A DNA stretch of 22,529 nucleotides from positions 1-22,529 of the IMG/VR virus record IMGVR_UViG_3300036770_002182. One strand, written 5' to 3'. Below are positions 354 to 21,403 of this stretch, in pieces (the stretch's first letter is position 1; every line of letters starts with the position of its first letter). The stretch comes from a virus. The notes under the pieces were generated by a model, which did no database searches, was not told where the DNA came from, and saw only the letters and a list, made by a program, of their open reading frames with translations. Made by a program: the position numbers and the translations under genes.

Positions 354-1382
354 ATGGCGTACATCTACTCAATAACAAACTTAGTCAATAATAAGATTTA
401 CATCGGTCTTACTACTAAATCAAATCCTTATGATAGATGGAAGCAACATTTATACCTAGCAAAGAATAAGGATAATTTATCTGAATCAAATTCTGCTTAT
501 ACAATGCCAATCATAAGAGCAATTAGTAAGTATGGTGCAGATAAGTTTAAGTTTAGAGTTGTAGAGGAATGTGATGATAATATTGTAAATAAAAGAGAAA
601 AGTATTGGATTGAGAAATTTGATACTTGTAGCAATAAAGGATATAATGCTACATTAGGTGGTGAAGGTGTAAATAAACCTCGTAAGTATTGGAGTAACCA
701 TCCAAATAGTAAACCAATTAGTTGTTTTACATTAGAAGGTGAATGGGTAAAAGATTATGATACTGCTGGTGTTGCTGCTGATTGTTTAGGTAACAAAAAG
801 GGGAAAACATCTATTAGTGCTTGTATAAAAGGAATTACATTTCAAGCACTTGGGTATAGATGGGCATATAAAGGTGAAACTCCTAAACTAATTGAAAAAA
901 GAGTTAATCGTCGTGGTGAGATATATGGCATACATTTAAAAAGTGATCGTAAGAAAATGTGGAAATGTGCTGCTGATTTTGCAGAAGAAATTATTGGTAA
1001 TCGTAGATCAAATAATGGTATTGTTCAGTCATTGAATAGTCCAAACAATAATAAACTACAAGTTTATGATTGGTATTTGTTTAGAAATAAAAATGATGCT
1101 TTGAGTGATTGGACTCCTGCAAAAAGAGCAAATTATAGTTCTGACTACTTTTCAAAGTTAGGTAAATTGAGTGCAAAAAAGAAGAGTGTTGCTGTAAAAG
1201 GAGTAAATGTAAATACTGGTGAAGTAGTTGAATTTAACAGTATTTGTGAAGCATCATACTTTATAAAGGGTGAAGGAGATAGAAGTGCTGTTCCTAACAT
1301 TCATAAGAACATTAAAAGATTAGAGAATGGTCAGAGATGGTGTTATGCTTTTGGGTATCGTTGGTATAAAAATTATTCATAA
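354..1382 (+). CDS. GIY-YIG homing endonuclease
   Basis: A 342-residue free-standing GIY-YIG nuclease, expected to cut a specific DNA site so that its own gene spreads by repair. The N-terminal catalytic domain (about 1-100) shows the motif pair as YIY (3-5) and YIG (16-18), the catalytic Arg at R28 (YDRW) and the metal-binding Glu at E82 (KREKYW). Two C-terminal stretches (about 118-172 and 278-340), each ending in a GYRW motif, look like NUMOD1/IENR1-type DNA-binding repeats, as in T4 Seg and I-TevI enzymes. It is the only gene on the plus strand and is more AT-rich than its neighbours, as expected of a mobile gene. No strong ribosome site is seen; GGAA lies about 17 nt upstream of the ATG. 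Its 3' end overlaps the convergent gene at 1373-1582 by 10 nt. Confidence 0.9.
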   Translation: MAYIYSITNLVNNKIYIGLTTKSNPYDRWKQHLYLAKNKDNLSESNSAYTMPIIRAISKYGADKFKFRVVEECDDNIVNKREKYWIEKFDTCSNKGYNATLGGEGVNKPRKYWSNHPNSKPISCFTLEGEWVKDYDTAGVAADCLGNKKGKTSISACIKGITFQALGYRWAYKGETPKLIEKRVNRRGEIYGIHLKSDRKKMWKCAADFAEEIIGNRRSNNGIVQSLNSPNNNKLQVYDWYLFRNKNDALSDWTPAKRANYSSDYFSKLGKLSAKKKSVAVKGVNVNTGEVVEFNSICEASYFIKGEGDRSAVPNIHKNIKRLENGQRWCYAFGYRWYKNYS

Positions 1383-4301: not shown

Positions 4302-4966
4302 AGTTGACGTTGAACAGAACCACTTGCCTGCCGATGAAGTGACACACCAGCACCGACATTTGCACCCACAGCAGCACCAGCACCACTCGCACCATTCATT
4401 CTCTTGGCACGACCAAACCGCATCGTAGACAGTTTCTTATCCACTGCCTCTGCATCATCGTGAGTGCGACCTTCCTCTTTCTTCATTTCAGCAAGTCGCA
4501 TTGCAACTTTATCTGCAAATGCCTTGCGGAAATTAAGTTTGAAAGAACGGGAAACAGTAGCACCAGTCAGTTCGGCAAGAACTTTCTCTGCTTTATGAGC
4601 AGTTTCTGCCTCACGTTCCATCACTTGACACAGATAGTCAAAATAGAGTTTGACTTGGATTTGCTGACCCTCACTACCGATCACTTGAAGTGATTTATGA
4701 TCTACCTTGTTGGAAAGGTATGCTTTTGCATCATAGAAGTTTGCAACAGCATTGAGCAGAATGGAAAGAGCAGCATTGGTTTTCTTGAAGATCATAAACG
4801 ACTCATCAAGAACTTGAGTTTCAGTTGCTTCACTGATCGAAACTCCGTATTGCTTACAGAGTTTATCAATCATCGCAGCAGCAGCAGATGCTTCACCCTC
4901 AAAGTCAGTTCCATTCTGGAGTTTCAGAATGGATTTGATTTTGGCAATAACTTGTTGACGATCCAT
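4289..4966 (-). CDS. DUF2786-domain protein
   Basis: A 225-residue protein. The N-terminal 45 residues (MDRQQVIAKIKSILKLQNGT ... EGEASAAAAMIDKLCKQYGV) match the DUF2786 pattern: two helices around a 'tEaEA-A...id-l...yg(v/i)' core. A longer helical region follows (about 60-160), then a basic segment with KKLSTMRFGRAKRMNG and a Gly/Ala-rich tail (GASGAGAAVGANVGAG). Proteins of this type occur in many phages and bacteria; the function is unknown. The frame extends to 5002, but those residues (MPYNTETQ...) are the promoter, so the ATG at 4966 is used. It heads the unit 4966-3806. Confidence 0.8.
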   Translation of the reverse strand: MDRQQVIAKIKSILKLQNGTDFEGEASAAAAMIDKLCKQYGVSISEATETQVLDESFMIFKKTNAALSILLNAVANFYDAKAYLSNKVDHKSLQVIGSEGQQIQVKLYFDYLCQVMEREAETAHKAEKVLAELTGATVSRSFKLNFRKAFADKVAMRLAEMKKEEGRTHDDAEAVDKKLSTMRFGRAKRMNGASGAGAAVGANVGAGVSLHRQASGSVQRQLCGV

Positions 4967-4990
4967 CGTGTCGGTTGCTTGTGTCTCTGT

Positions 4991-5048
4991 ATTATAGGGC
5001 ATCCGGTGCCCCGGTGCGAGGTGTAGTGGACAGTGCTACAAGTGGCAC
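4991..5048 (-). promoter_or_regulatory. Family A hairpin/promoter cassette upstream of 4966
   Basis: TATAAT (4991-4996) is abutted upstream by a palindrome with arms GGGCA/TGCCC (4997-5011). Further upstream is an imperfect copy of the conserved hairpin (5026-5048; GTGGACAGT ... AGTGGCAC), whose left and right arms come from different variants and pair poorly. The -10 continues as TATAATACAGAGACACAAGC, close to the other family A copies. Confidence 0.65.
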
Positions 5049-5066
5049 AGTCTCACATTGGTCTCA

Positions 5067-5468
5067 TCAAAGTTGTGCTTCAATCAAATCAGCAATTTGT
5101 TTGAATGTTGAACCATTATCATTCAATTCAGCAATTGCGACATTGATCCAAAATTGATCTTCATCTCCATTTTCATCTTCATCTTCAACTTTAATGGTAG
5201 GAGAACTAGAGTAAAGTCCTGCCCATTGCCTCACCGATGATGGAAGAAGTTCACTTTCTCCGTCAAAATACCAATAATCTTGAGGCAGAGGATTTTCATC
5301 ATACTCTCCCTTAAACACCCAACCTTTATTAAAGGGTTCTTGTGCGTAAAGATCGCAAAGAACACCTAGACAACAGAAACCATCATTACTCCGCAGTCTT
5401 CCGGTTGCTTGCTGATACTCACCAGAACGCAGAGCATCCACCCATTTTTGTTTGATTTCGGTATTCAT
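5067..5468 (-). CDS. Conserved phage protein (FCCLGVLCDL family)
   Basis: A 133-residue protein of a family found in many phages: KWVDALRSGEYQQ near the N-terminus, the Cys-rich FCCLGVLCDLY motif (31-41), a central VRQWAGL, and a C-terminal helix IAELNDNGSTFKQIADLIE. An acidic insert (VEDEDENGDEDQ) precedes the last helix. No enzymatic role is established for the family. The start has an AT-rich leader without a ribosome site. It is the last gene of the unit 6065-5067 and stops 18 nt before the cassette hairpin. Confidence 0.85.
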   Translation of the reverse strand: MNTEIKQKWVDALRSGEYQQATGRLRSNDGFCCLGVLCDLYAQEPFNKGWVFKGEYDENPLPQDYWYFDGESELLPSSVRQWAGLYSSSPTIKVEDEDENGDEDQFWINVAIAELNDNGSTFKQIADLIEAQL

Positions 5469-5509
5469 TTGAATAATAAAATAGAATTGAAGTTGTAAGA
5501 GTTGTTTGT

Positions 5510-5632
5510 TTAGACTACAAACTCCTCAAGAAAATAATCTACTGTGATTTCCATTTCCTCACAGATTTTCTCTACACACTCACCAGTGAGTTGTTCGTAC
5601 CAGTAGCAAAAGATGATTTGTTCTTCGGTCAT
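5510..5632 (-). CDS. Small phage protein, 40 residues
   Basis: Reads MTEEQIIFCYWYEQLTGECV and then an acidic helix ending DYFLEEFVV. The start follows the stop of the previous gene by 7 nt. Aromatic and Cys residues near the N-terminus followed by acidic helices suggest a small folded helical protein. I recognise no function. The 41 nt between it and the gene at 5468 hold only AT-rich leader. Confidence 0.62.
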   Translation of the reverse strand: MTEEQIIFCYWYEQLTGECVEKICEEMEITVDYFLEEFVV

Positions 5633-5639
5633 AGTTAAA

Positions 5640-5807
5640 TCAAGCAAAAACTCGGGAGATCAGCACACCTTCTCGATACACATTGACAGGAGCACCATTG
5701 AGTTCAGCACTCCAATCCCAGGCAGAATCATAAGCACGTTCTTCATCCATAAAGTATTCAGCATCATCCAGAATGAAACCTTCGGTTTGAGGAAGAATTG
5801 CGAACAT
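5640..5807 (-). CDS. Conserved cyanophage small protein, 55 residues
   Basis: Begins MFAILPQTEGFILDDAEYFM and ends AELNGAPVNVYREGVLISRVFA. The pattern 'AYDxAWDxSxExxxxVxVYxxG' is typical of a family of short cyanophage proteins of unknown function. An upstream Met at 5858 would add Pro/Phe-rich residues encoded by leader DNA, so the ATG at 5807 is preferred. The leader is U-rich (TTTTCTTTAATCCA) with no ribosome site. Confidence 0.72.
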   Translation of the reverse strand: MFAILPQTEGFILDDAEYFMDEERAYDSAWDWSAELNGAPVNVYREGVLISRVFA

Positions 5808-5864
5808 TGGATTAAAGAAAATAGTTGGAAATAAAGAGGGAGAATGTATCTCCCTCAATTAGAA

Positions 5865-6065
5865 TCAGAGGGCAGCAAGGTATGCTTCGATCTCATCATC
5901 ATTTTCAGGGCAATCAGCAATGCCCAGATCCTCGCAAACTTGTTCCCGAGTGTATTGAACTTGAGTGGGAACAAGAGTTTCCAGAATCTCAAGGATTTGA
6001 TTACCAGTAGCACCCTTGCGGAGCATACCAACCATCAGTTCGGGAGAAAAAGTAGCAGCAGTCAT
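5865..6065 (-). CDS. ELMVGML-family protein, longer copy
   Basis: A 66-residue acidic protein with SPELMVGMLRKGATGNQIL near its N-terminus and LETLVPTQV after it. The gene at 6422-6544 carries the same segment (SQELMVAMLNRANTGNELL), so the two are paralogues flanking a 350-nt structured non-coding region. Its C-terminal part (CEDLGIADCPENDDEIEAYL) is absent from the other copy. Function unknown. The leader is AU-rich (ACTTTATTCTAA). Confidence 0.75.
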   Translation of the reverse strand: MTAATFSPELMVGMLRKGATGNQILEILETLVPTQVQYTREQVCEDLGIADCPENDDEIEAYLAAL

Positions 6066-6177
6066 TTAGAATAAAGTTGAGTTTAATTTGTGGTAAGTGT
6101 TTGGACTCCTACAAGAGGCACTCCCAAACCAGAACCCCGGAGTGTGAAACAACCGGACTTCCCTCACCACCCCCTTA

Positions 6178-6234
6178 ATGTAGCAGGTTTCGGGGGCAGT
6201 GGGGGGTTTGGTGGACAGTTTGGGAACTGGCACA
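6178..6234 (-). promoter_or_regulatory. Divergent family B cassette upstream of 6065
   Basis: The hairpin GTGgaCAGTT ... AACTGgCAC (6212-6234) precedes a weak extended -10, TGC-TACATT (6178-6186). The sequence after it (TAAGGGGGTGGTGAGGG) matches the family B copy near 13630 (TAAGAAGGTGGTGAGGG). A decayed second hairpin copy (about 6088-6114) lies in the leader. It is a plausible promoter for the unit 6065-5067. Confidence 0.45.
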
Positions 6235-6299
6235 CTCATCTGGGACTCAATGGGATTGGTCCTAGGGTCGGGTGCCCCCTCCAGTCTCGGGTGGGACTC

Positions 6300-6390
6300 G
6301 ATGAGACCCCTTGCGGCACCTGGGGGCAAAACCCAAAATACTTTCGATTCTGCCCCTCAGGTGCCCTAGGTCGTCCCCCGCAGTCTCATC
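6300..6390 (-). ncRNA. Candidate structured RNA element
   Basis: Two nested perfect or near-perfect stems occur in 91 nt. The outer stem is GATGAGAC (6300-6307) with GTCTCATC (6383-6390). The inner stem is GGCACCTGGGGGCA (6315-6328) with TGCCCCTCAGGTGCC (6351-6365), 14 bp with one bulge. The region is much more GC-rich than its surroundings and has no coding frame that fits the neighbours. It lies after the stop of the small gene 6422-6544, so it may be an elaborate terminator, or a processed small RNA. Strand is assumed from the flanking genes. Confidence 0.5.
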
Positions 6391-6421
6391 ACCTGTTTAT
6401 GTGAAACTGTTGAGACTGCCC

Positions 6422-6544
6422 TCACATTTCAGGTTGGGCATCAGTTTCATCAGCAACTTCACTTACCAGAGCATCAAGAATGTCAAGAAGTTCATTGCCA
6501 GTGTTGGCACGATTCAGCATAGCAACCATCAGTTCTTGGGACAT
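6422..6544 (-). CDS. ELMVAML-family protein, short copy
   Basis: A 40-residue protein reading MSQELMVAMLNRANTGNELL, then DILDALVSEV and an acidic tail. It is a paralogue of the 66-residue product at 5865-6065. It follows the ArdA-like gene at 6636 by 91 nt with an AU-rich leader (TTCTTTATTCATTCATTTTGATT). The KGATGNQIL/RANTGNELL motif suggests a conserved helix pair. Function unknown. Confidence 0.7.
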   Translation of the reverse strand: MSQELMVAMLNRANTGNELLDILDALVSEVADETDAQPEM

Positions 6545-10940: not shown

Positions 10941-11414
10941 CTAGTCTTCATACTTATCTTTTTTAGATAAATTATCTTTTTTCCAAAGAGGTTGAAGATT
11001 AGTGTAATGATTTGCTTTATATTGTTCTTCTAATGAGGATAAATCAAATTTTGATAATGGTTTAATATGATCAATGTGCCATTCACCATAATTTTCCCAA
11101 GTCATTCCGTCTACAAATTTATTTTCAATGTGTTGTAGTAATTCTTCTCTTGAACATCCAAAATTTCTTTCAATGAACTTGGAACCGGATTGATTTTTTA
11201 TACATCTTTTTAATCTAGATCTTAAATTATCAATCAGTCTTCCTTTGGCAGAACTTCTGTATTTTCTTCTATACTCGTTTCTTTTTTCTGGATTATTTTG
11301 ATAAAATAATCTACTTCTCTCATTATGTATTTTTAAATTTTCTGGATTAGACAACCACTTTCTTTTCGTTTCTCTATTAGATTGTCTTCTTTTTTCTGGG
11401 TCTTTATATGGCAT
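10941..11414 (-). CDS. HNH homing endonuclease
   Basis: A 157-residue free-standing HNH nuclease. The N-terminal part (1-70) is very basic and DNA-binding in character (YKDPEKRRQSNRETKRKW). The catalytic core is WHIDHIKPLSKFDL (112-125) followed by NLQPLWKKDN (139-148), giving the His-His pair H113/H116 and the Asn residues N139/N148 of the HNH fold. It is much more AT-rich than its neighbours and lies between the helicase gene and the hairpin that probably ended the helicase transcript, as expected for an inserted mobile gene. A long hairpin covers its start codon and has a late promoter in its loop. Confidence 0.9.
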   Translation of the reverse strand: MPYKDPEKRRQSNRETKRKWLSNPENLKIHNERSRLFYQNNPEKRNEYRRKYRSSAKGRLIDNLRSRLKRCIKNQSGSKFIERNFGCSREELLQHIENKFVDGMTWENYGEWHIDHIKPLSKFDLSSLEEQYKANHYTNLQPLWKKDNLSKKDKYED

Positions 11415-15531: not shown

Positions 15532-15732
15532 TTATCCCAGTTCTCTCATAATTTCTTTCTTTAGTTTTTCTTTTTCCCTTTCTTCCTCTCGTTTGATATG
15601 TGGAGCTTGCATAAACTCTTGTTGTCTTTTCCTTTGAAGTTCCGTTCTTTCTTGTTGTCTTTGATTTTGTGCCATAGCAATTGTTCGTCTTCTAGACTCA
15701 ATATCTTCAAAGAAAGACTTATAGGATTTCAT
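15532..15732 (-). CDS. Small basic protein with T4 internal-protein-like N-terminus
   Basis: A 66-residue, highly charged protein starting MKSYKSFFEDIESRRR and continuing as a long Arg/Glu/Gln helix (QRQQERTELQRKRQQEF, EEEREKEKLKKEIM). The start resembles the capsid targeting sequence of T4 internal proteins (MKTYQEFIAE). A clean [LI]xE cleavage site is not evident, so packaging is a guess. It has a late promoter (15755-15762) 22 nt upstream, in line with a virion protein. A coiled-coil scaffold-like or nucleic-acid-binding role is equally possible. Confidence 0.65.
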   Translation of the reverse strand: MKSYKSFFEDIESRRRTIAMAQNQRQQERTELQRKRQQEFMQAPHIKREEEREKEKLKKEIMRELG

Positions 15733-15763: not shown

Positions 15764-16615
15764 TTAAATTACAGTAGGATGTAGAGATTCAACATCATAA
15801 TTTGTAATAAGAAGTTCTTTCTTCACATTATCTTTTGTTCCTTTATCCCCACGATGAACCATTGAATAACGAAGTTCCCACTCTCTTTGATAATAGTTCT
15901 TATATCTTTCTACAATCCAGTCATTGATATTATATGTAATCATAAACCGATGAGGACACTTATCTACATCATCTGCGAATCTTTCGTGAGAGAATGATGA
16001 ATGTAGTTGTCGATTAGTTCCATACAAAAAGTCTTTAATATCATAAGGAGGATCTAAAAATACAAATACATTATCACCTGGAGGAGACATTACCTCCGAA
16101 TAATCTATATTTGTAATATTCCAATTACTAATAATTTTAGAGTATTTTGGTAGTTTCTCAATACCAACCAAAGAAAAATTAGATCTTGATGCTTGAACGG
16201 AAAATGTTGAGTTCTCTGTAAGTCCTGAATAAGAACACTTATTCATTACAAAGAAAGCAACTGCTTGATCGAATGGTTCTAGATCTGAAATAGTAGAAGC
16301 ATATGTATTGAATAACTCTTTATGTGCTTCATCATTGCCGTTTATATCACTTTTAATTGAATATAATCTTTCCGAAAGATCTTGCCCTCTATCACGAAGT
16401 TGAACCCAGAAGTTATAAAGATAAAAATACTTATCGTTAATCCATACTGGAACCTTAGGATAATTCTGGGAGAATAGAAGTGCTACACTTCCTCCCCCAA
16501 TGAATGGTTCTCGATATTCTTTTATGTCAGTAGGAAACCAAGGGGCAAGAGTTTTTAATGCTTTACTCTTGCCTCCGGGGTATCTCAAGGCCGTCTTCAA
16601 AGGAAATTGTTTCAC
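15764..16615 (-). CDS. dam: Dam-type DNA N6-adenine methyltransferase
   Basis: A 283-residue class D12 (alpha) adenine methylase, transferring a methyl group from S-adenosylmethionine to adenine, in this family usually in GATC. Visible motifs are RYPGGKSK (11-18, motif X), EPFIGGGSVAL (36-46, motif I, cofactor site) and FLDPPYD (186-192, catalytic DPPY), with TYNIND further on. The start is a GTG (16615) overlapping the upstream TGA (GTGA), with GGAGAG 9 nt upstream. Length fits the family. It is coupled to the LAGLIDADG-like gene and lies near a nuclease-like gene at 17082. Methylation may protect phage DNA from restriction; target specificity cannot be read here. Confidence 0.93.
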   Translation of the reverse strand: MKQFPLKTALRYPGGKSKALKTLAPWFPTDIKEYREPFIGGGSVALLFSQNYPKVPVWINDKYFYLYNFWVQLRDRGQDLSERLYSIKSDINGNDEAHKELFNTYASTISDLEPFDQAVAFFVMNKCSYSGLTENSTFSVQASRSNFSLVGIEKLPKYSKIISNWNITNIDYSEVMSPPGDNVFVFLDPPYDIKDFLYGTNRQLHSSFSHERFADDVDKCPHRFMITYNINDWIVERYKNYYQREWELRYSMVHRGDKGTKDNVKKELLITNYDVESLHPTVI

Positions 16616-17037
16616 TTAAAACTCTCCACTAATTCCATATGTTCATTTAATTTTTCACACAACATAAAGTATTTTTCTTTTCTTCTTTTACCAAGATAAG
16701 GAAGCATTAATTTAGTCCAAAAATGTGCCGGTTCTCCACCTATACTCAAATAATATGATGGTTTTTGTCCTGCTGCTTTATGAACTGGGCCACCTTCAGT
16801 ATATGTAATTTTTCTACCATCCATTATACTAGCAACCCTTAACATTATATCTTCATCAGTCATTTGAAGATTCATTCTTAAATGAGATTTTTCTACATAA
16901 ACTTTTCCATTTCTGTTTGGTTTTCTTCTTTCTGGTTTATAAGACCAAGAACCTTCACCTTCCCATATTCCACATAACCAAGCAAGTTCTGCTTCTGTAG
17001 GTGGGATGTGTTTATACTTTGTTCCTCTTATTTTCAT
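16612..17037 (-). CDS. LAGLIDADG-like homing endonuclease
   Basis: A 141-residue basic protein. LAWLCGIWEGEGSW (18-31) matches a single LAGLIDADG motif with the catalytic acidic residue in the EGEGS turn, followed by strand regions and MTDEDIMLRVASIM, and by LPYLGKRRKEKYFML, typical of the family. One motif implies a homodimer. LAGLIDADG proteins are uncommon in T4-type phages. Its stop overlaps the GTG of dam, so dam translation may depend on it. A hairpin with a late promoter in its loop lies upstream. Catalytic activity is not certain. Confidence 0.8.
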   Translation of the reverse strand: MKIRGTKYKHIPPTEAELAWLCGIWEGEGSWSYKPERRKPNRNGKVYVEKSHLRMNLQMTDEDIMLRVASIMDGRKITYTEGGPVHKAAGQKPSYYLSIGGEPAHFWTKLMLPYLGKRRKEKYFMLCEKLNEHMELVESFK

Positions 17038-18027: not shown

Positions 18028-19266
18028 CTACTTATTTGCTTGTGATTGCCTTCTTTCACGACTCTTCTTTCTAACTGCCGCAGAGATTAAATCTCTCACA
18101 GTTACTGCTGATTCTTTACTCCCAGGTCCAGAAACAATATCCTTTGTCTTACCTTCAAATTCGTGTGCTCCTCCTGCTCTATGAGGAACTCCTGGTTTTC
18201 CTTCTGGTGTTTTCTTTCCTTTTGCTGCCATCAAATTCCTTGGTTGATGACCGTGATAGATCCCAAGTTTCTTATCACGTTCAACTCTCTTTTTCCATTC
18301 AGCATCACTCATTGATGCTTTTAGTTTAGCAGATTGATGTGTTGGAGTAATATGATGTGCCTCATATCCTTTTCTTTTAATCGCAGTCTCTTTACGTTTT
18401 GCTTTATCTCTTTCTTCTTGTGATGTTAGAGACTTAATTCTTTCAGATCTTGCTTGTCTTTCCTTTGCTCCACCTGATTTTGGTTTAAGTCTCCATCTTG
18501 GATTTTCTGTGCTTCCGGCATTATTCCAATAATATCCTTCTGGTGTTCCACCGTGATGCTTTTCACCTTCTTCTCTACTTGAAAATGTTTTTGATTTTTC
18601 AATTAAATAAGATTCTTTTGTAATTCTATTTGCCGTAGTTCCTGTTCTTTTATTTGTTACTGCATTATGAGTCTTAACATACATTCTAGATCTAGAATCA
18701 CTTGTAGGTTTAGAAGTCATAATGTCTCCTGGTTTTGCTCCTGCTTTTTTAAGATTAGCAGAAACACCTTTCGTCACTTCTTGTCTAAAACTTCTACCTT
18801 TTGTCATAGTGCTAGATTTATCATCATCATAAGTTCTTTTCTTATTTACTGCAACATCGTGAACTGGTTTTGGTGTTCTATCACCACCAAGTTGCTTTCT
18901 AATTTGTTTTGCTTTTAATGCTCTGCCTTTTGTTGGTTTATTTCCTTTTGGTCCTAGATTTCCAATCTTTGCTGCTGCATAATCAGATTGATTTGCAAAG
19001 GTTGACGTTTCTGTATCGTGATGAGTTGAAGCAGAAGTTTCCGTATATTTAATTTTACGTCCACCTTTACCAGTTACTGGTCTTGAAGACCTACTAAATC
19101 CAGCTTTTGAAAGTGCTGCTCTATTTGAACTGTCCTGCTTTTGTTTATTTCTATCAGACCTATTTGCTGATGGTCCACGAGATGCTAATCTTCTTTTCCC
19201 ACTCTCACCAGAAGAACTTTCTTGAAGTTCATCACAATACTCTGCAAACTCTTTGAATGTTTTCAT
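18028..19266 (-). CDS. Candidate head-packaged protein with HNH/AHH-like domain
   Basis: A 412-residue, strongly basic protein. The N-terminus MKTFKEFAEYCDELQE (1-16) closely resembles the capsid targeting sequence of T4 internal proteins (MKTYQEFIAE), and LQE-S fits the gp21 prohead protease rule (cut after [LI]xE). A long Lys/Arg/Ser-rich linker follows. The C-terminal domain has GYEAHHITPTHQSAKLKASM (300-319), EWKKRVERDKKLGIYHGHQP and RNLMAAKG, an arrangement like HNH/AHH-type nucleases. The related gene at 19285 shares it. I infer a DNA-binding or nuclease protein carried in the head and injected; enzymatic activity is untested. A late promoter (19286-19293) precedes it. Confidence 0.7.
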   Translation of the reverse strand: MKTFKEFAEYCDELQESSSGESGKRRLASRGPSANRSDRNKQKQDSSNRAALSKAGFSRSSRPVTGKGGRKIKYTETSASTHHDTETSTFANQSDYAAAKIGNLGPKGNKPTKGRALKAKQIRKQLGGDRTPKPVHDVAVNKKRTYDDDKSSTMTKGRSFRQEVTKGVSANLKKAGAKPGDIMTSKPTSDSRSRMYVKTHNAVTNKRTGTTANRITKESYLIEKSKTFSSREEGEKHHGGTPEGYYWNNAGSTENPRWRLKPKSGGAKERQARSERIKSLTSQEERDKAKRKETAIKRKGYEAHHITPTHQSAKLKASMSDAEWKKRVERDKKLGIYHGHQPRNLMAAKGKKTPEGKPGVPHRAGGAHEFEGKTKDIVSGPGSKESAVTVRDLISAAVRKKSRERRQSQANK

Positions 19267-19284
19267 CTACTTATAGATTTTACT

Positions 19285-20103
19285 CTATTTATTTTGTTTT
19301 CTTTTTCTTTGCTTTTGTCTTACTTCTTTAACTTTTGAAGAAAGTTCTCTCCAAGTTAAATTACCTCTTCTACGAGTATGGATTGTTCCATGATGAGATA
19401 TTCCAGGACCTTTTTCACCCATTCTCTTTGCAAACGCCAAATTTCGTGGATGATTGCCGTGATATATTCCTTTCTTTTCATCATCTTTCAATCTTTGTTG
19501 CCATTCTGAATCACTCATTGATGCTTTTATTTTTGCAGATTTAGCAACTGGGGTCATATGATGCAAGTCCATTCCTTGCTTAGATGCCTTTTCCAGTTTT
19601 CTAGAAAATCCTTGATGATTTTGATGTTCTGGTGGGGTTACATCATGCAATCTTTGTTTTCTTTTTGTTCTTCTTGAAGTTTCGTTTTGATAATCAACTA
19701 CTCTTCCTCCTGGTTTAGACCTAGATCCATAGTTTCTAATTTCTCTAGTTCTTCCATCAGCACCTTTAAAAAATCTCAATCCTCTAGAAATTGCATCATT
19801 TTTTGAATCCCCTAAACCATGCTTTAACCCTCTAAGTCCCGTGTCCCTTCTTGCTGCTTCCATAATAAAATTTTCAAAAGTTTTTTTCTTACGATTCCTT
19901 GCTGGGTGGGATACTCTTCCACTATCTAAATTTCGATTTGCTTCCTTTCTTTTTCTCATCATATTTGACATAAGTTGAATTGAAGGTCCTTCATCATATC
20001 CTGAACGAACTAAATCTTTTGGAGATTGTGCGGCAGAAGCAGCAAATGCTAACCCTAAAAGTGCGTTTGCTGCTGCGTCTCGTTTTCTACCTTCTTGTAG
20101 CAT
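19285..20103 (-). CDS. Basic protein with HNH/AHH-like domain, paralogue of 18028
   Basis: A 272-residue basic protein. The C-terminal domain (178-241) has MDLHHMTPVAKSAKIKASMS, then EWQQRLKDDEKKGIYHGNHP and RNLAFAKRMGEKGPGISHHG, aligned with the domain of the 412-residue neighbour. Inside the protein, KKTFENFIMEAARRD (73-87) looks like a displaced capsid targeting sequence with an I-M-E|A cleavage site at residue 82, preceded by an extra 73 residues with an Ala-rich helix (AAANALLGLAFAASAAQ). It ends in a basic tail (VRQKQRKRKQNK). Its AAT-AAA-TAG end overlaps the next late promoter. A late promoter at 20125-20132 precedes it. Nuclease and head-packaging roles are inferred. Confidence 0.68.
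   Translation of the reverse strand: MLQEGRKRDAAANALLGLAFAASAAQSPKDLVRSGYDEGPSIQLMSNMMRKRKEANRNLDSGRVSHPARNRKKKTFENFIMEAARRDTGLRGLKHGLGDSKNDAISRGLRFFKGADGRTREIRNYGSRSKPGGRVVDYQNETSRRTKRKQRLHDVTPPEHQNHQGFSRKLEKASKQGMDLHHMTPVAKSAKIKASMSDSEWQQRLKDDEKKGIYHGNHPRNLAFAKRMGEKGPGISHHGTIHTRRRGNLTWRELSSKVKEVRQKQRKRKQNK
19286..19293 (-). promoter_or_regulatory. T4-like late promoter upstream of 19266
   Basis: AATAAATA matches NATAAATA perfectly, 20 nt upstream of the start at 19266. It overlaps the last codons and stop (AAT AAA TAG) of the preceding gene. The same overlap of promoter and stop codon occurs at 20125 and 21689. Confidence 0.62.
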
Positions 20104-20923: not shown

Positions 20924-20981
20924 ATTATAGCAGGTATCAGGTGCTGTTGAGAGGTATAGTGGACGGTTCAAAAACTGTCAC
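20924..20981 (-). promoter_or_regulatory. Hairpin/promoter cassette upstream of 20900
   Basis: An extended -10, TGC-TATAAT (20924-20932), is followed by ACAGAGG as in family A. A short AGCA/TGCT palindrome overlaps it. Upstream is the conserved hairpin in its GTGGACGGTT ... AACTGTCAC form (20959-20981), with a bulge and one mismatch in the minus-strand RNA. The stop of the peptide deformylase gene (20978-20980) lies in the hairpin arm. It is the only early-type cassette in the right part of the window. Confidence 0.65.
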
Positions 20982-21403
20982 ATCGTCATCAGTATTCCGT
21001 GAAGATGATCTATTTCGTGTTGAAGTATTCTCGCAGACATCCCTTCATAAGTATCTACACAAGGATGACCTTTAATGTTTCTATATTTTACTACCACAGA
21101 ATTATATCTTTTCTTTTCTATGAAAGTTCCTGGTATTGATAGGCAACCTTCTTCACCAGATACTATTTCATCCGATGTTGAAATAATTTCTGGATTGATG
21201 AATACCTTTGGTTGATTGTCAATTAAAGCAATGACGATTTGTTTTAATATACCACATTGAGGTGCTGCCAATCCAACACCATTATTAGAAATCATTGTAT
21301 CAATTAATGATACACATAAGTTCTTTACGGAGTCATCAATACTCGCAACCCTCTTGCTTTTTTTGCGAAGAATTCTATTCTCGTCTGTTAGAATATTCAG
21401 CAT
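20978..21403 (-). CDS. def: Peptide deformylase
   Basis: A 141-residue peptide deformylase, which removes the formyl group from the first Met of new proteins. All three family motifs are intact: GVGLAAPQ (42-49), EEGCLS (84-89, metal ligand C87) and HEIDH (129-133, ligands H129 and H133, catalytic E130). It ends 10 residues after that motif, so it lacks the C-terminal helix of bacterial enzymes, as known for cyanophage deformylases, which are thought to favour processing of photosystem D1. The start overlaps the upstream gene by 7 nt. It ends in the hairpin of the cassette at 20924-20981. Confidence 0.95.
   Translation of the reverse strand: MLNILTDENRILRKKSKRVASIDDSVKNLCVSLIDTMISNNGVGLAAPQCGILKQIVIALIDNQPKVFINPEIISTSDEIVSGEEGCLSIPGTFIEKKRYNSVVVKYRNIKGHPCVDTYEGMSARILQHEIDHLHGILMTM

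Follow-up and report, generated by a model that had tools for sequence, protein, structure and literature searches.

Does this locus encode a nuclease that is packaged into a phage head and injected with the DNA? The gene in question, P0001, lies in a virus record of 22.5 kb (22,529 nucleotides), the whole of which is called the window here. A first-pass annotation had described its 412-residue product as a possible nuclease, carried into the head by a T4-type targeting peptide. The ORF is present and is read on the minus strand, from 19266 down to 18028 (Table 1). The product has a net charge of +49 and a pI of 10.3. The first-pass annotation mentioned neither the strand nor a second copy of the C-terminal module in the neighboring ORF P0002, and it left out another conserved cleavage-like site, at residue 223, by which the nuclease-like part is set off as a separate module. 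The window is probably a fragment of a T4-like cyanophage; this assignment of host and taxon follows from similarity, because Synechococcus phage S-SRM01 (Kyanoviridae) has the closest cultured relatives of both P0001 and the window peptide deformylase, and phages P-RSM4 and S-TIM4 match a 50-bp stretch at 92% identity. The deformylase gene (20978–21403, minus strand) has its best phage match in S-SRM01, at 50% identity. The window also holds possible homing-type endonuclease genes at 354–1382 (plus strand, GIY-YIG-like), 10941–11414 (minus strand, HNH, below the cut-off) and 16612–17037 (minus strand, weakly LAGLIDADG-like).

Table 1. Positions of P0001, its parts and nearby features in the window. 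A slash marks a predicted cut.
Feature	Position	Strand	Basis or remark
P0001 ORF, 412 aa	18028..19266	(-)	ORF reading
N-terminal capsid-targeting-like peptide MKTFKEFAEYCDELQE, residues 1–16, predicted cut after E16	19219..19266	(-)	sequence and T4 comparison
Domain A, residues 17–223, very basic, pI 10.7	18598..19218	(-)	sequence comparison
Internal cleavage-like site YLIE, residues 220–223, at the edge of the C-terminal module	18598..18609	(-)	sequence
HNH-like module, residues 224–412, with invariant H304, H305, H338, N344, H362	18031..18597	(-)	alignment and model
Late-promoter-like box AATAAATA of P0001	19286..19293	(-)	~27 nt upstream of the gene
Late-promoter-like box AATAAATA of P0002	20125..20132	(-)	sequence
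Probable intrinsic terminator, GC hairpin and T run, downstream of P0001	17975..17998	(-)	read by eye, no program score
P0002, 272-aa ORF, second HNH-like module copy	19285..20103	(-)	sequence comparison
66-aa ORF, label-like start MKSYKSFFE/D	15532..15732	(-)	sequence

P0001 starts with MKTFKEFAEYCDELQE/SSSGE, as the first-pass annotation stated, and residues 1–7 (MKTFKEF) are identical to the first seven of the T4 internal protein I (IPI). T4 proteins were translated as controls. IPI (MKTFKEFTSTTTPVSTITE/A) has the same MKTFKEF start and a hydrophobic-x-E site at ITE19/A, and IPII and IPIII both start with MKTYQEFIAE/A. In this T4 peptide, called the label below, residues 4 and 7 direct targeting and residues 8 and 10 direct processing (PMC9026906). 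F4 and F7 of P0001 are the aromatic or hydrophobic residues expected at these positions of a T4-type capsid-targeted propeptide, and LQE16/S supplies the hydrophobic-x-E sequence with which such a propeptide ends and where cleavage is predicted. The strict ten-residue T4 rule does not hold for P0001. With A at position 8 and Y at position 10, the cut must fall at residue 16, compared with 19 in IPI. The first-pass annotation had taken LxE at residue 16 to be the site of the prohead protease, and this site is conserved in homologues (LCE/SS in L004, LSE/SS in L054 and a remnant, LEE/SS, in L005). An S77 (gp21-type) prohead protease was found in six related records, including the nearest relative of 71.8 kb; its gene would not be expected inside a 22.5-kb fragment. 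A cut of P0001 at E16 is therefore likely by comparison with T4.

The T4-like targeting sequence claimed earlier also recurs in the family. Chance resemblance was set aside: the label is found at 17 of 33 listed family starts (identical copies were merged and close relatives kept, so these are not independent sequences), and of 437 annotated cyanophage proteins a single one starts with the pattern M[KI][TS][FY]..F. A more extended rule for the label matched 9 of the 437 cyanophage protein starts versus 4 of 1827 internal methionines (p 1e-4), and a DNA pattern for label starts gave 37 matches across the window and its relatives, 12 records in all, versus 3 for the reversed pattern. Hydrophobic-x-E occurs no more than 16 residues from the start in 31 of the 33 listed family members, compared with 109 of the 437 background proteins. 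One relative, L052, starts with MKTFQKFIAE/A and agrees with T4 IPIII around the cut.

Relatives of the C-terminal part of P0001 (residues 224–412) come from 41 environmental viral loci. Neither a tblastn search of cultured phages nor a pattern scan of bacterial and archaeal genomes found the module. Domain A is related to two tandem proteins of S-SRM01 and to L004 and L054. At the module edge, P0001 has a further hydrophobic-x-E site, YLIE223/K224 (YLIE/KSKTF). Other fused forms have DILE/VNRPE (L004, L054) or VVVE, VVME or VILE/VNRPE (L057–L060) at this edge, and stand-alone copies of the module read FILE/VNRPE. Because the conserved YLIE223/K224 sits where the His-rich module begins, the product of P0001 may be a two-part precursor, and cleavage at E223 appears somewhat probable from its conservation.

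The same parts occur in other arrangements. L062 has comparable halves as two labelled genes side by side, 4832–5581 (domain-A-like) and 5581–6426 (module), and its domain A is only distantly similar to that of P0001 (46% over 41 residues). In L005, the module directly follows a label; after it come a labelled gene resembling GNAT and, in broken form, a remnant of the start of domain A. Single ORFs in L100 (2893–4335) and L099 (2432–3811) are made up of a label, an HNH-like module, a second internal label (MKSYKTFLEE/S or MKRYNQFIKE/S) and a nucleotidyltransferase-like domain. Further family members start with MLxE/G or MLxE/A, followed by approximately 70 residues and then an internal KTFxxFxxE, often without a methionine. 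P0002 has an MLQE start and an internal KKTFENFIME82/A site, and its module is 40% identical to that of P0001 over the matched region. These arrangements suggest cassette shuffling and precursors that would be split by the protease.

The true start of P0002 is ambiguous: its internal KTFENFIME/A corresponds to MKTFKEFVEE, with methionine, in the L005 relative, and the front part before the internal site measures approximately 80 residues. A small labelled protein with weak similarity to GNAT acetyltransferases recurs beside the HNH-like genes (L005:3633–4013, L123:1501–1872, L120:2169–2558). Another labelled family, with the shared sequence EMRKEDKV.GK.KTP, is seen in the same gene arrays (L120:1088–1576, L121:1501–1956, L062:4357–4827); its member L051:1088–1573 had no match in cultured phages. 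Small labelled proteins of related phages, one of them in L062, show weak similarity to the 66-aa ORF of the window.

The first-pass annotation described an HNH/AHH-like, His-rich C-terminus. P0001 indeed carries HHITP (304–308), YHG (337–339), PRN (342–344), PHR (361–363) and AHE (367–369), and H304, H305, H338, N344 and H362 (P0001 numbering) are invariant in 28 sequences, in keeping with the His/Asn pattern of HNH/AHH nucleases. Using AlphaFold2 on the 28-sequence alignment, we obtained a model with pLDDT 82 and pTM 0.68. In the model, the HH motif lies on a strand; two inserted helices come next, then a second strand immediately behind N344, and a helix that starts at residue 367 and is of lower confidence. 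The predicted strand-strand-helix order fits what a beta-beta-alpha metal site would show, but Foldseek searches of the PDB and BFVD with two models gave no significant fold match. VIA-align returned one chain at Z 2.5, and a profile search of PDB sequences gave no match. P0001 had no match in Pfam, where the best relative reached 12.7 bits for HNH_2 versus a cut-off of 21, and no significant family match for the module was found in PHROGs. When an AHH set gathered here was aligned to the module with hhalign, the HH motifs were aligned with a score of 21, versus at most 14 in 30 column shuffles, at a probability of 4%. The AHH resemblance is at the level of the motif only. Because of this low probability and the lack of a significant fold or family match, we call the module HNH-like and do not assign it to the Pfam AHH or HNH families.

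These results have to be weighed against a second explanation, in which P0001 is packaged as a basic internal protein but has no nuclease function. It would balance the charge of the DNA or block a host defence enzyme, as T4 IPI does, and its His and Asn residues would bind a metal or a partner. The high net charge of P0001 and the lack of a significant nuclease match for the module agree with this, and the T4 internal proteins are diverse injected defence proteins that have the label alone in common (PMC3012670). However, the invariant HH...H.....N...H in 28 diverse sequences resembles an active site, the predicted strand-strand-helix order points the same way, and such conservation would not be needed for charge balance alone. 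We consider a non-nuclease role a serious but lesser possibility. The nuclease reading is plausible and slightly favored, but it is not proven.

Analyses of cyanophage virions have repeatedly turned up enzymes without a structural role, and the authors of the virion studies could not decide between packaging and contamination (PMC10665884, PMC9602691). We translated all 219 proteins of S-CREM2, whose published virion proteome comprises 52 proteins (PMC10665884 Table 3), and applied a T4-derived label rule (hydrophobic residues at 4 and 7, hydrophobic-x-E at 8–10). The rule matches six S-CREM2 proteins, five of which are in the virion proteome (p 0.003; the N-termini had been seen before the test). 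Virion proteins with the label include a SAM lyase (MKDFDSFLEE), a kinase (MKRFDAFLTE) and a cytidylyltransferase (ORF154, MKNFSSFLTE). The S-SZBM1 proteome alone is not significant (0/3 by the strict rule). Pooling the two phages gives p 0.002, but the rule was widened after S-SZBM1 had been seen, and the S-CREM2 value is the cleaner one. The cytidylyltransferase has been reported from the virions of several cyanophages and is the sole label-bearing protein detected in those of S-SZBM1. It bears the label in S-CREM2, S-SZBM1 and S-SCSM1, and relatives of it with the label are also found in P-SSM2, S-SM2, S-CRM01 and S-SRM01. From these comparisons, which support it well, packaging of P0001 in the phage head appears very likely. 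In the open-access papers searched, we found no description of this label in cyanophages; as far as searched, the label on their non-structural virion proteins is seen here for the first time.

Some related observations were made in these proteomes. The annotated start of the Bellamy cytidylyltransferase (gene 170, L069:1–230) misses an in-frame label upstream, MKSLFQFLNE/A. S-CREM2 ORF12 (L038:7704–10313), a virion protein annotated as Cas9, has the internal label LRFASFMAE/A after an N-terminal extension and an HNH-like motif, DHVIG...DPLNLV...N..K, near residue 497, which was read by eye and is without a Pfam score. The name Cas9 is doubtful because it has no Pfam support. An element like LGLVGDGHGGWYNRATGEFEAKTVGGQLKYF follows the label in unrelated enzymes (S-CREM2 ORF12 and ORF14, S-SRM01 165428, L065, L066 and L067), and it is possibly a second packaging or core-binding motif.

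The proteomes also bear on whether P0001 could be a component of the prohead core or scaffold that is mostly digested after entry, with nothing functional injected. The labelled S-SZBM1 proteins 191 and 192 were undetected in virions, as this would predict, and hydrophobic-x-E sites are abundant in T4 scaffold proteins. Against this, labelled enzymes persist in S-CREM2 virions, and the patchy distribution of the family, with no match in cultured phages, is unlike that of a core assembly part. We consider a scaffold role improbable.

The first-pass annotation had also placed a late promoter before the gene. Late-promoter-like boxes are mildly above chance in the window (44 one-mismatch matches versus 31 expected), which is weak evidence by itself. 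The family comparison supports the late promoter of P0001: 22 of 32 family members have an ATAAATA or [TC]CTAAATA box in the 60 nt preceding the gene, compared with 4% of random windows, and some members without a box come directly after another labelled gene. A hairpin and T run lie just downstream, so that a late transcription unit probably ends with P0001. An HNH homing endonuclease or other selfish gene with a coincidental label-like start, a thought encouraged by the homing-endonuclease-like genes in the window, is very improbable given the upstream late promoter box, the recurrence of label and cleavage-like sites across the family and the lack of a homing-endonuclease family match in Pfam or PHROGs.

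We therefore return to the packaged nuclease. P0001 would be made late and directed to the prohead core through its N-terminal targeting peptide, and a T4 gp21-type (S77) prohead protease would cut it after E16 and probably also after E223. On infection of the next cyanobacterial cell, the cargo would enter together with the DNA. The cuts would release domain A, which is very basic, and a metal-dependent nuclease module of HNH/AHH-like type, which would most likely act early on host DNA or that of rivals. Carrying a nuclease in the head is not necessarily harmful to the phage: active T4 virus has been obtained with staphylococcal nuclease in the heads, and digestion occurred only on addition of calcium (PMC3012670). 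We put packaging, cleavage and nuclease activity together at a probability of roughly 0.5. Action after injection is fairly probable by analogy, and for early action on the host we infer solely from T4 precedents. The nuclease activity and its target are the least certain parts of this explanation. The first-pass reading is thus supported in part: comparison strongly favors targeting, the prohead-protease site and late expression, and its nuclease is plausible from the invariant residues and the predicted order of elements, without a significant family or fold match.

More tentatively, P0001 may belong to a modular cargo-cassette system in cyanophages. Late genes in tandem would encode a variety of enzymes with short T4-type labels in front, and cassettes that have fused would give polyproteins for the prohead protease to split in the head. 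From P0001, an HNH nuclease for injection and a second, basic protein would result, and the label would predict injected proteins from sequence alone. The T4-type label offers a mechanism and a sequence rule for the non-structural enzymes of cyanophage virions, and the rule is open to a check in existing mass-spectrometry data, in the form of peptides whose first residue is the one following the predicted E. With this family, viruses that infect photosynthetic bacteria have candidates for injected nucleases, and protease-split cargo is a possible route to two delivered proteins from one gene.

We regard P0001 as a new cargo family in a known kind of system, in an unusual, possibly polyprotein, form. 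Its module shares the HH motif and the order HH, N, H, helix with the AHH/HNH-EndoVII nucleases (Pfam PF14412), a match at the level of the motif; it differs in having no score above the cut-off and in a long helical insert between HH and N. P0001 shares the N-terminal label with the SAM lyase, kinase, 'Cas9' and cytidylyltransferase of S-CREM2 (PMC10665884), whose passenger domains are unrelated to it and which were detected in virions, whereas P0001 is known from sequence alone. Like T4 Alt, the packaged ADP-ribosyltransferase, it would be an enzyme-like cargo of a T4-type head, injected with the DNA, but it has no ADP-ribosyltransferase domain, and the Alt propeptide differs (MELITELFDE). 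With T4 IPI, IPII and IPIII it has in common a short propeptide ending in hydrophobic-x-E, a basic character and a late promoter box. Unlike these T-even proteins, P0001 probably comes from a cyanophage; its passenger is much larger, with a conserved module of HNH-like type and another cleavage-like site inside the protein.
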